Source of the DNA: Methanomassiliicoccales archaeon
GTDB lineage: Archaea; Thermoplasmatota; Thermoplasmata; Methanomassiliicoccales; JAAEEP01
Assembly: GCA_013415695.1 (NCBI GenBank)
Contig: JAAEEP010000012.1
Coordinates: 1 to 62,644 of the forward strand
Reading direction: 5' to 3'
Length of the DNA: 62,644 nucleotides
Under the pieces are notes generated by a model that worked only from the letters and a program-made list of their open reading frames with translations, was not told the DNA's origin and did no database searches. Below, one piece after another: positions 15,411 to 62,037 of this stretch (positions are counted from its first letter, which is position 1; each line of letters starts with the position of its first letter). Position numbers and translations under genes: made by a program.

Positions 15411-16289
15411 TCAGTTGATGGTCACGGTAGTGCCACAGTTGGTGCCCATCAGCACCTGATTGAGTATTGAATTCGGCTCTCTTCCGTTCACCATATGTGC
15501 CTTCTTCACACCGTTCTCGATCGCCAGGCGACATGCCTCTACCTTGGGAAGCATTCCCCCTGAGACGATCCCGACCTCAATGAGATGGTCCATCTCGGCA
15601 ATGGTTATGTCAGTGATGATGGTGTCCAGGTTTCCGATCTCCCTCATCACTCCGGGGACATCGGTAACCAGGACCATCTCCTCGCAGCCCAGCGCCCTCG
15701 CCAGATGTGCTGCCACTGTGTCGGCGTTGACGTTCATCTCCCTCCCTGAGGGGTCGACGCAGATGGGATAGATGACGGGCACGAAGCCGCTGGCACAGAG
15801 AACGGACACAGTGGTGGGATCGATGCACTTAACCTCCCCCACATTACCAAGATCCACCTTCAATTTAGCACCGTTCTCCTCTACTTCGACAGGGGACTTC
15901 TTCTCGCATATGACTGTCTTTCCCTCACTGCCGGAGATACCTATGGCCTTGACGCCTGTGGCCTTGAGAGCGTCGACTATTTGGTCGTTGATCTTCGAGA
16001 GAACGTCCTTCACCACATTGATGGCCTCGTCATCCGTGATGCGGAGTCCCGCAACCTTCTTGACCTCGAGTCCGCGAGCTTCCATCTCCTTGCTTATATT
16101 CGGACCACCCCCATGAACAACGATGGGCCTAAGGCCCAGCGAGACAAGCAGGGCGATGTCATTGGAGATGCGCTCCAGGTCTCCGTTGCCGTTGAGGGAG
16201 TTCCCTCCGAACTTGATCAGGATCTTCTTCCCACGGAGCTTCCATATCCGCGGAAATGACTGGGTCATGATGTTCAGGTTCACTTTCAT
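15411..16289 (-). CDS. argB: Acetylglutamate kinase
   Basis: 292 residues. Amino acid kinase fold motifs are seen: KILIKFGGNSL at the nucleotide-binding start, VVHGGGPNISKEME, VAGLRITDD, and the C-terminal GIVSGGMLPKVEACR and VNGREPNS. It phosphorylates N-acetylglutamate, the second step of acetylated arginine synthesis. The stop of argJ is a few bases upstream of the ATG at 16289 (GTG at 16292 abuts it directly), so translation is coupled. ATG at 16268 (MTQSFPRIW) is another possible start. Feedback control by arginine is usual in some families, but the sequence does not settle it. Confidence 0.95.
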   Translation of the reverse strand: MKVNLNIMTQSFPRIWKLRGKKILIKFGGNSLNGNGDLERISNDIALLVSLGLRPIVVHGGGPNISKEMEARGLEVKKVAGLRITDDEAINVVKDVLSKINDQIVDALKATGVKAIGISGSEGKTVICEKKSPVEVEENGAKLKVDLGNVGEVKCIDPTTVSVLCASGFVPVIYPICVDPSGREMNVNADTVAAHLARALGCEEMVLVTDVPGVMREIGNLDTIITDITIAEMDHLIEVGIVSGGMLPKVEACRLAIENGVKKAHMVNGREPNSILNQVLMGTNCGTTVTIN

Positions 16290-16292
16290 CAC

Positions 16293-17519
16293 CTATGTAG
16301 TGTACTCCGCGTTGATCTTCACGTACTCGTAGGAGAGGTCACATCCCCAGGCCTCAGCCAAAGAGTTTCCGAGGCCTATGTCCACCACTATGTGGATCTC
16401 CTTCTTCTTCAGCAGTTCCTTCAGAGGCTCCTCCCCCGTCCCGCAGGTCTGGATGAGAGGTTCGCCCTGCTCGTATATGGGTATCATGGTGCCGTTAGCC
16501 CCCATGGCTAAGTTCACCCTTTCGGGAACCATCTCTGCGCCCGAGTAGCCCAGAGCACACAGTATACGTCCGTAGTTGGGATCGGAGCCGAAAATAGCGG
16601 TCTTCACCAGATTGGAGGACACTATTGCCTTCGCAGCCTTTCTCGCATCTTCGGTCGACCGCGCACCCCTAACGACCACGGATATCAGCTTGGTGGCACC
16701 CTCTCCATCTAATGCAACCTGCTTGGCAAGGAGCTTCGCGACATACCTCACCCCCTCCCAGAAGGCTTCCGATTCGTCTGCTTTCATGCCCCCGGCGCAG
16801 CCGTTCGCCAAGATGACCGACATGTCGTTGGTGCTCTGATCACCATCCACATCGATCTGGTTGAAACTGGAGTCCATGACATCCTGCCATTTCCCGTCGA
16901 ATCCAGGTGATAGGCAGGCATCAGTGGTAATGAAACTGAGAGTGGTGGCATGAAGTGCCTTCATAGCGGGGGAGATCATCCCGCTACCCTTGGCCATCCC
17001 CCCGATGGTCACCTTGGTGCCGTCCTCGAGGGTCACCTCGCATGCAGCTTCCTTGATCACAGTGTCAGTGGTCAGTATGGCTTGAGCAGCCTCCACATCC
17101 TTCTTGCGGCCGCTATCAAGTTCATTAGTGATCTCCTTGATGCCCGAGATTATCTTATCCGTCGGTAGGAAGCGGCCGATGATACCCGTGGACACCACTC
17201 CCACCAGGTCCCTTTCGAGACCGAGTGAGGCAGCGGTCTGGGAAACCATGTCCCTGGCATCCTTTGCACCCCTGTCTCCGGTTAGGGTGTTGGCATTGCC
17301 AGAGTTGATTATGAATGCCTGGAGCTTCTTTGGGTCAAGCTCTATCATGACCTTGAGGGGTGCGCCCTTCACCTTGTTCTGAGTATACGCGATAGCGCAG
17401 GTCGCTTCCGTCTCGGAGTAGATGAGCGCCAAGTCGCGCTTGTGCTTCTTGATGCCGCAGGCAATGCCAGCGGCCTTAAACCCCTTGGGGGATGTTATAC
17501 CCCCATCTATCACCTTCAT
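16293..17519 (-). CDS. argJ: Glutamate N-acetyltransferase / ornithine acetyltransferase
   Basis: 408 residues, typical of ArgJ. The autocleavage site that generates the alpha and beta chains is in MKALHATTLSFITTDA; the new N-terminal threonine is the nucleophile. MKVIDGGITSPKGFKAAGI is the usual N-terminus, so ATG at 17519 is preferred over GTG at 17528 (MSEMKV). The enzyme transfers the acetyl group from acetylornithine to glutamate, recycling it; some members also use acetyl-CoA. The ATG lies one base after the argC stop. Confidence 0.95.
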   Translation of the reverse strand: MKVIDGGITSPKGFKAAGIACGIKKHKRDLALIYSETEATCAIAYTQNKVKGAPLKVMIELDPKKLQAFIINSGNANTLTGDRGAKDARDMVSQTAASLGLERDLVGVVSTGIIGRFLPTDKIISGIKEITNELDSGRKKDVEAAQAILTTDTVIKEAACEVTLEDGTKVTIGGMAKGSGMISPAMKALHATTLSFITTDACLSPGFDGKWQDVMDSSFNQIDVDGDQSTNDMSVILANGCAGGMKADESEAFWEGVRYVAKLLAKQVALDGEGATKLISVVVRGARSTEDARKAAKAIVSSNLVKTAIFGSDPNYGRILCALGYSGAEMVPERVNLAMGANGTMIPIYEQGEPLIQTCGTGEEPLKELLKKKEIHIVVDIGLGNSLAEAWGCDLSYEYVKINAEYTT

Positions 17520-60412: not shown

Positions 60413-60418
60413 AAAAAA
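60413..60418 (-). terminator. Poly-T terminator of tRNA-Leu
   Basis: Six T residues on the minus strand, five bases beyond the tRNA discriminator, fit the T-rich transcription stop used by archaeal RNA polymerase after stable RNA genes. The plus-strand stretch 60251-60412 otherwise holds only AT-rich intergenic DNA with no supported gene. Confidence 0.5.
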
Positions 60419-60422
60419 GTAG

Positions 60423-60529
60423 TGCGAGGGACCGGATTTGAACCGGTGAACCTCTTCAGGAACAGATCTTGAGTCTGCCGCCTTTGATCGATGCATTCAG
60501 CATCTTTGACCTGGCTTGGCTACCCTCGC
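60423..60529 (-). tRNA. tRNA-Leu(CAA) with a 22-nt D-arm intron
   Basis: 107 nt including the intron; 85 nt after removal, the normal leucine tRNA length. Acceptor stem GCGAGGG paired with CCCTCGC, discriminator A. Anticodon stem GCAGA/TCTGT encloses CTCAAGA, giving anticodon CAA (reads TTG). The variable arm is long (CCT-loop-AGG), as required for tRNA-Leu, and the T loop is TTCAAAT. The D-stem GCC/GGC is interrupted by a 22-nt insertion (60484-60505) flanked by a bulge-helix-bulge. No encoded CCA. Confidence 0.93.
60484..60505 (-). other. Noncanonical tRNA intron with bulge-helix-bulge
   Basis: In tRNA orientation the region reads GCC-A-GGUC-AAA-GAUGC-UGAAU-GCAUC-GAUC-AAA-GGC. GAUGC pairs with GCAUC (intron hairpin), GGUC with GAUC (the central 4-bp helix) and GCC with GGC (the D-stem), leaving one AAA bulge on each strand. 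Cutting after the second A of each bulge removes exactly 22 nt and joins CAA to AGGCG, restoring a normal D-arm; the junction corresponds to about tRNA position 21/22. The surrounding direct repeat (UCAAAG) leaves alternative register possible by a few bases. Confidence 0.88.
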
Positions 60530-60715
60530 CTGACAAGGGTTCGTAAATGCCCATGCATTAATAAATCTTGTTGAATGCAAAGTCATATCAAGCTGTGATA
60601 ATCCTCCACCAAAGACAGGGAGATAGTGGAATAAGCCCGTTCTTTTCAAAGGAGGATTTCACAGATTATCGTAATTCGCATTCGTTCCAGTAACCCCGAC
60701 GCTATATTCCTTGGG

Positions 60716-60741: not shown

Positions 60742-62037
60742 GTGGCTAGTGATATAGTGGCACGTTTAGGATTATCTAGGTTAGTCGAGGACATGCTCAA
60801 CAGGCCATCCGCCATCCGCGAGATCATGCGGATGACCGACGAGAAGAATGTCCGCCGTATGGGTCTCGACCCCACCGACATTATTTCATTCGGGGGAGGA
60901 TGGGTTGGCCACAAGGCACCTGAGAGGCTCAGAGAGATCTACCAGGATATCTGTGCCGATCCTCAAATCTTCCATGAGGCGGGGGCCTACCCGCCAACGC
61001 CCGGACTCAGGGCATGCAGGGAACAGCTGGCTCGCCTTGACGACGAGCTGTTTGGAGTGGAAGTGAGGGAAGAGAACGTTCTCATTTCCCAATCATCCAC
61101 CCAGCTCACGCACGACGTCTTCAGGGCAATTGCAAATCCGGGGGATTGCGTGGTGCTCCTAGATCCGACCTATGCCAACTACTACGGGCAGCTGGTCTTC
61201 TCGTTGCCCCACTACAACGGTGGGGTGAAGCCAGAGGCGAAGGTGGCGTATCTCAAGACCTTTGATGCGGAGACATGGTCATTCATGCCAGATGTCGATG
61301 CCTCAATAGGAGAGCTGGAGGACATCTTCCGAAAGGAGAAGCCTAACTCCATGCTGATCCCGTCTCCAGACAACCCCACTGGACAGGTTGTCAGCGACAA
61401 GTTCGTCAAGGCTGCCATGGAACTGTGTCAGGAGAATGACGCGTATCTTCTGCTTGATAACGCGTACAAGACACAGTGCTTCCTTGAAACCATGCCTGAT
61501 TACTACTCATGGTCCCCGGATGAGTTCGAGAACCTCATTCTCATCTACTCGAACTCGAAATGGGCTAGAGGTCTAGGAAGGAGAATGGGATGGATAATAG
61601 CCTCCGATATGGTGGTCAATGGACTAACCCAGATGCTGAACTATTCACTCCTCTGCGCCGACAATCTTCACCAGCTGGCGATGGCGGGATTCCTTGAACA
61701 GACATTGGACGATGGAAGCCTCAAGAATTACTTGGATGATACTCGAAATGCCTACAAAAGGGCGGCCAAGGTCACGGTGGATGCCATCGACGAGTACTGC
61801 GGTACAAGAAGGCTTTTGCCACAGGGAGGAATATACACACTAGCTGAGTTCGGGGATGGGAGCGATTCCTTCGTAACTGAGCTGATGAAGAACACTGGCG
61901 TCCTATTCGTTCCAGGCATTGGCTTTGGAGAGAGTGCGAGACCTGGAGTCAGAGTTTCCTATGGACCTCTTGTAGAGGATATGGACAAGATCGTAGAAGG
62001 CATGAAGCGAGTGGGCGAGTACCTGCACGAAAACTGA
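60742..62037 (+). CDS. Class I/II aminotransferase
   Basis: 431 residues. PLP fold-type I: ISFGGGWVGHKAPERL near the start, EAGAYPPTPGLRACREQLARL, PSPDNPTGQVVSDKF, the aspartate/tyrosine pair in YLLLDNAYKTQC, and the PLP lysine in YSNSKWARGLGRRMGW. It is only distantly related to the aminotransferase at 54911, with a longer N-terminal part (MASDIVARLGLSRLVEDMLN). Substrate uncertain. GTG 60742 is the start: a TATA box lies about 22 bases before it and there is no ribosome site, fitting leaderless translation. Confidence 0.88.
   Translation: MASDIVARLGLSRLVEDMLNRPSAIREIMRMTDEKNVRRMGLDPTDIISFGGGWVGHKAPERLREIYQDICADPQIFHEAGAYPPTPGLRACREQLARLDDELFGVEVREENVLISQSSTQLTHDVFRAIANPGDCVVLLDPTYANYYGQLVFSLPHYNGGVKPEAKVAYLKTFDAETWSFMPDVDASIGELEDIFRKEKPNSMLIPSPDNPTGQVVSDKFVKAAMELCQENDAYLLLDNAYKTQCFLETMPDYYSWSPDEFENLILIYSNSKWARGLGRRMGWIIASDMVVNGLTQMLNYSLLCADNLHQLAMAGFLEQTLDDGSLKNYLDDTRNAYKRAAKVTVDAIDEYCGTRRLLPQGGIYTLAEFGDGSDSFVTELMKNTGVLFVPGIGFGESARPGVRVSYGPLVEDMDKIVEGMKRVGEYLHEN

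Follow-up and report, generated by a model that had tools for sequence, protein, structure and literature searches.

An interrupted tRNA-Leu(CAA) gene

The window (the whole 62,644-nt stretch of Methanomassiliicoccales DNA analyzed here) contains a complete tRNA-Leu(CAA) gene on the minus strand at 60423-60529. Read on that strand, the gene begins GCGAGGG TA GCCAAGCCAGGTCAA, continues with an insert, AGATGCTGAATGCATCGATCAA, and then reads AGGCG GCAGA CTCAAGA TCTGT ... CCCTCGC A. The acceptor stem (GCGAGGG/CCCTCGC) has seven base pairs and is perfect, the variable arm is long, and both the T-arm and the variable arm are normal. An earlier note, made from the sequence alone, held that the gene is 22 nt too long, that the surplus lies in the D-arm and not at position 37/38, and that its removal restores an 85-nt tRNA with a normal D-stem. 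All of this agrees with the comparison to relatives. The precursor has 107 nt, compared to 85 nt in orthologues that lack the insert; the CTCAAGA anticodon loop is uninterrupted, and the insert lies at 21/22. The D-arm reads GCCAAGCCAGGTCAA-AGATGCTGAATGCATCGATCAA-AGGC, compared to GCCAAGCCAGGTCAAAGGC in the intronless orthologues, and subtracting 22 nt from 107 nt leaves a spliced tRNA that equals these orthologues in length and sequence pattern. A sigma-70 and terminator scan, which is not suited to archaea, gave no match. An aminotransferase class I/II gene (60742-62037, plus strand) is divergent from it; the top NCBIfam match of this aminotransferase is GntC-like (E = 3.1e-46) but falls far short of the cut-off of that model, too weak to assign a function.

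Table 1. Features of the tRNA-Leu(CAA) locus in window coordinates
Feature	Position	Strand	Basis
tRNA-Leu(CAA) gene, 107-nt precursor, CCA not encoded	60423..60529	-	Sequence, fold, 23 full-length orthologues
5' exon, tRNA nt 1-24, last nt A21	60506..60529	-	Identical to 5' part of intronless orthologues
Predicted 22-nt D-arm intron AGATGCTGAATGCATCGATCAA at 21/22	60484..60505	-	Sequence, fold, relatives; cut sites from the canonical BHB rule
3' exon, A22 to discriminator A73	60423..60483	-	Sequence, orthologues
BHB central helix, 5' half GGUC	60508..60511	-	Fold, orthologous introns
BHB central helix, 3' half GAUC (GACC or GGCC in relatives)	60486..60489	-	Fold, orthologous introns
5' splice-site bulge AAA (AAU in most relatives)	60505..60507	-	Fold, orthologous introns
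3' splice-site bulge AAA	60483..60485	-	Fold, orthologous introns
Intron hairpin GAUGC-UGAAU-GCAUC	60490..60504	-	Fold, orthologous introns
Anticodon CAA	60469..60471	-	Sequence
TATA-box-like TTTATTAAT, 28-36 nt upstream of the gene	60557..60565	-	Read by eye from sequence
T6 run, terminator-like, just 3' of the gene	60413..60418	-	Read by eye from sequence

ARAGORN reported no tRNA at 60423-60529, and the gene was missed by Rfam at the gathering score, its own score being 19.6 bits. ARAGORN places introns solely in the anticodon loop, and for this reason the matches listed with introns allowed were all spurious giant introns. Rfam also gave weak matches to mir-649 and Plastid-ycf2 at the gene, which were rejected as chance. 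The earlier note had raised the possibility of a second intact tRNA-Leu(CAA). The spliced sequence was therefore compared with the whole genome (1.99 Mb in 41 contigs, 99.6% complete), and no second copy was found; the remaining leucine tRNAs have the anticodons GAG, CAG, TAG, and TAA. Since no second gene was found, this copy is probably the working one.

Fold of the precursor and orthologues in relatives

The unconstrained MFE fold of the 107-mer contains the bulge-helix-bulge (BHB) described in the earlier note: a 4-bp GGUC/GAUC helix with AAA bulges on opposite strands and a GAUGC/GCAUC stem. One refinement is needed, as A17a is unpaired opposite the 3' bulge. This produces a 1x3 loop on the 3' side and makes the motif slightly imperfect. 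In standard numbering (T20, C20a, A20b, and A21), a cut after the second bulge nucleotide would place the intron at 21/22. The fold has a z value of -3.49, and none of 200 dinucleotide shuffles folded as well. Among 400,000 trials with shuffled inserts, only 105 (0.026%) gave both the 4-bp helix and an inner stem of 4 bp in this register, and the BHB is therefore not due to chance.

Relatives were searched for genes with and without the insert, and both exist. Full-length matches to the interrupted gene were found in 23 of the 150 relatives searched, with 84-90% identity over 107-113 nt. In these 23 Methanomassiliicoccales genomes the insert occupies the same 21/22 site and is 22-28 nt long. 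Carriers occur throughout the list in two families, f5 and f6, and in a single genus of f3; the genome of the window is the only member of f1 seen. An intronless 85-mer, from which the insert is exactly absent, occurs in f4, in other genera of f3, and in one f2 genome. The 4-bp central helix and the two 3-nt bulges on opposite strands recur in the 22 distinct orthologous introns, where the helix is paired in each of its 88 cells. For the inner stem, pairing holds in 107 of the 110 cells, compared to 90.8 +/- 2.3 in shuffles (maximum 99, 2000 shuffles). This stem covaries, with GATG/CATC, GGCG/CGCC, and GGTG/CACC exchanged for one another and several pairs changing on both sides, and the intron loops (3 to 11 nt) are free in sequence and length. 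The AAU bulge found at the 5' site of most relatives removes part of the alignment ambiguity and is consistent with cleavage at 21/22.

Other interrupted tRNAs in the genome

Further introns were found by decoding the tRNA set of the genome (G000) and following weak matches. Many are canonical BHB introns at 37/38. Others lie elsewhere, and cutting them out at the BHB sites leaves ordinary D- or T-arms. The tRNA-Thr(CGU) gene (G000:C32:7908-8001, minus strand) has a 22-nt D-arm BHB intron (GCUC AGCG GUA ACCCC-CCAAA-GGGGU CGUU AAG GAGC). D-arm introns in this tRNA recur in f3, f4, f5, f6, and a class-level outgroup, f8, and the f2 genomes examined have a 72-nt tRNA-Thr(CGU) without one. The tRNA-Lys(UUU) gene (G000:C5:94470-94605, plus strand) has no intron at 37/38 among its two, which are a D-arm intron with a UAGG/CCUA helix and a T-loop intron with a UUCG/CGGA helix. 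The two-intron form is conserved in f3, f4, f5, and f6; in f2 genomes the spliced form matches over its full length, and the D-arm break is seen in f8. On the simplest reading of these distributions, the old introns of tRNA-Thr(CGU) and tRNA-Lys(UUU) were lost in f2.

A T-loop intron at 59/60 interrupts tRNA-Lys(CUU) (G000:C1:151317-151413, minus strand; GAGGG UUCG AAA GGUUUG-GAAA-CAAGCC CGAA CAU CCCUC). Several f3 and f6 relatives have this gene uninterrupted, and gain of the intron may thus be more recent. An intron of the same design at 59/60 accompanies a 37/38 intron in tRNA-Arg(UCU) (G000:C11, about 70980-71095, minus strand). The 32-nt insert near 23/24 of tRNA-Val(UAC) (G000:C18, about 16231-16335, plus strand) is probably another intron away from 37/38; its BHB (GUCA/UGGC) is plausible and weaker. 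The tRNA-Trp(CCA) gene (G000:C11, about 70600-70790, minus strand) has a long intron that resembles the C/D-box-containing intron of other archaea.

Splicing enzymes

The type of splicing endonuclease, which the earlier note had suggested checking, could be assigned from a single gene. This tRNA-splicing endonuclease (EndA) gene (G000:C5:44677-45777) encodes a protein of 367 aa that contains two PF01974 repeats; a separate gene for a second EndA subunit was not found in the genome. The protein matches TIGR00324, and its alignments to a two-repeat EndA chain and to the Archaeoglobus fulgidus alpha2 enzyme run from end to end. A single chain with two tRNA_int_endo repeats and the catalytic residues in the second repeat is the alpha2 type, as in the EndA of A. 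fulgidus (1r0v/1rlv) and Ferroplasma, which have the same architecture and a catalytic C-terminal repeat. The Tyr/His/Lys catalytic positions are conserved across about 30 related EndA proteins. Broad specificity is conferred by a crenarchaea-specific loop, defined in PMC6379350. In the alignment, neither EndA repeat has the loop that holds Lys44 in the Aeropyrum pernix enzyme (3p1z CSL), and none of the about 30 related proteins has an insertion at the CSL position. At the sequence level, the genome thus has neither a CSL/ASL-type loop nor a separate beta subunit. The genome also encodes an RtcB ligase (E = 4.5e-181), so that both an endonuclease and a ligase are present.

A related thermoplasmatal alpha2 enzyme, that of Ferroplasma, cuts minimal BHB substrates, with the motif as the chief determinant (PMC8707768). 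For the A. fulgidus alpha2 enzyme, a restriction to BHB motifs of the canonical form has been described (PMC12397907). To an enzyme that recognizes nothing but the BHB, the place of the intron in the tRNA should make no difference. Dependence on the motif also agrees with the displaced introns of this genome, most of which retain strict BHBs.

Processing of the tRNA-Leu(CAA) precursor

The locus very probably holds a functional tRNA-Leu(CAA) gene with a 22-nt BHB intron at 21/22 that is cut by the alpha2 EndA and joined by RtcB to give an 85-nt tRNA. In the predicted precursor, GGUC of the 5' exon would pair with GAUC at the 3' end of the intron and present two 3-nt bulges to the homodimeric alpha2-type endonuclease. 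EndA would cut after the second bulge nucleotide on both sides, and RtcB would join the exons into a class II tRNA with a normal D-arm. This reading is supported by the sequence and the fold, by conservation and covariation, by the empty sites, and by the presence of both enzymes; from these we infer transcription, the cut sites, cleavage by EndA, and ligation. Two points count against it. The 1x3 loop at A17a leaves the BHB slightly imperfect, and reviews place alpha2 action at BHBs in the canonical position (PMC4090602), which is a statement of distribution and not a tested limit.

Splicing by an overlooked broad-specificity endonuclease of the (alpha-beta)2 or epsilon2 type, in place of the alpha2 EndA, would fit the typical occurrence of D-arm and T-loop introns in lineages that have these enzymes (PMC4033280, PMC4090602). 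We regard this as very unlikely. The genome has one endonuclease gene, EndA was found in 40 of 41 genomes with mostly one full-length match per genome, neither repeat has a loop like the A. pernix CSL with Lys44, and most of these introns have strict BHBs for which broad specificity is not needed. Less probable still is that the insert is kept and enlarges the D-arm of the mature tRNA. Its conserved place speaks for retention, but its length (22-28 nt) and the sequence of its loop are free to vary, in contrast to the constant BHB helices and 3-nt bulges, and its removal gives exactly the intronless orthologue. The same BHB grammar also occurs in the T-loops of other tRNAs, where keeping the insert would destroy the T-arm. 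A decaying pseudogene or an assembly error, the least probable reading, would explain why ARAGORN and the Rfam gathering threshold miss the gene, but the perfect acceptor stem, the intact arms, and its place as the only Leu(CAA) found in the genome argue against both, and they were rejected because the structure is common to 23 independent genomes.

Inserts at the same site in other archaea

Genome contigs were scanned with a pattern for tRNA-Leu genes with a D-arm insert; the pattern fixes the site, so that the scan shows recurrence at this site and not preference over others. Of 78 stretches, 29 passed simple acceptor-stem and T-arm checks and are archaeal tRNA-Leu genes with an insert in the D-arm. 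Two others that passed, L117 and L123, were rejected as bacterial chance matches, and several more archaeal loci (e.g., L077, L090, L108, L142, L151, and L153) look genuine yet failed these checks. Inserts at the same D-arm site occur in tRNA-Leu from records of Methanocellales, ANME-2, Bathyarchaeota, Brockarchaeota, Thermoproteota, Nanoarchaeota, and Heimdallarchaeota. Among the loci with an insert at this site, L078, L086, L119, L121, L128, L130, L133, L135, L139, L146, L148, and L152 are tRNA-Leu genes of other archaeal groups. Some of these other archaeal tRNA-Leu genes carry an insert in the anticodon loop as well.

Comparison with known tRNA introns

Archaeal D-arm introns at 20/21, 22/23, and other sites are known, mainly from Cren- and Nanoarchaeota (PMC4090602). 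The 21/22 position given in the earlier note is correct, and what is unusual is the occurrence of D-arm introns, and of T-loop introns as well, in a euryarchaeal order with an alpha2 enzyme. BHB introns away from 37/38 have been described in Crenarchaeota (especially Thermoproteales), Nanoarchaeota, Korarchaeum, and three thermophilic euryarchaeal methanogens. The insert described here shares with them a short length, a BHB with a 4-bp helix and 3-nt bulges, and a D-arm site (PMC4090602, PMC3218864, PMC4033280), along with predicted removal by EndA and a ligase; multiple introns in one tRNA are a further feature common to those archaea and this genome. The insert differs in its host, a member of the Methanomassiliicoccales with an alpha2 EndA that lacks the CSL. 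Compared to the canonical 37/38 introns of Euryarchaeota, the motif and the single enzyme are the same, but the intron lies in the D-arm and, in other tRNAs, in the T-loop. Likewise, unlike the setting of the A. fulgidus and Ferroplasma enzymes, this genome offers D-arm and T-loop substrates. Judged by its sequence, the tRNA-Leu(CAA) insert is a member of the known archaeal BHB tRNA introns in an unexpected combination of lineage and enzyme. What makes the finding interesting is this combination, together with the further displaced introns of the same genome.

Reviews attribute to alpha4 and alpha2 Euryarchaeota single introns at the canonical site (PMC4090602), and they give Korarchaeum, whose enzyme has the specific loop, as the sole alpha2 archaeon that carries non-canonical introns (PMC4033280). 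With the introns predicted here, the Methanomassiliicoccales break this rule. A search of a limited set of papers found none on tRNA introns outside 37/38 in this order; database entries for them may exist, since tRNAscan-SE 2.0 detects this class of intron (PMC8450103). We consider it reasonably likely that a strict-BHB, loop-less alpha2 EndA supports a conserved set of D-arm and T-loop introns, including the two-intron tRNA-Lys(UUU), across most of the order, and that position 21/22 of tRNA-Leu is a recurrent insertion site in several archaeal phyla. Reviews link tRNA introns outside 37/38 to broad-specificity endonucleases (PMC4033280, PMC4090602). If this proposal is true, broad enzyme specificity is not a precondition for the spread of introns to new tRNA positions. 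The occurrence of several such introns, most with strict BHBs, alongside a single loop-less alpha2 enzyme suggests that the limit is the motif and not the position.

Interrupted tRNAs can score under standard detection thresholds, and tRNA genes reported missing from these genomes may therefore simply be interrupted. Genes for tRNA-Ala(UGC), tRNA-Arg(GCG), and tRNA-Arg(CCG) were not found in the whole genome G000; they may be interrupted or may fall in assembly gaps. Methanomassiliicoccus luminyensis was reported without any tRNA-Lys gene, which was put down to a 17-kb assembly gap (PMC4153887). By analogy with the relatives analyzed here, an interrupted gene may be an alternative to that gap.
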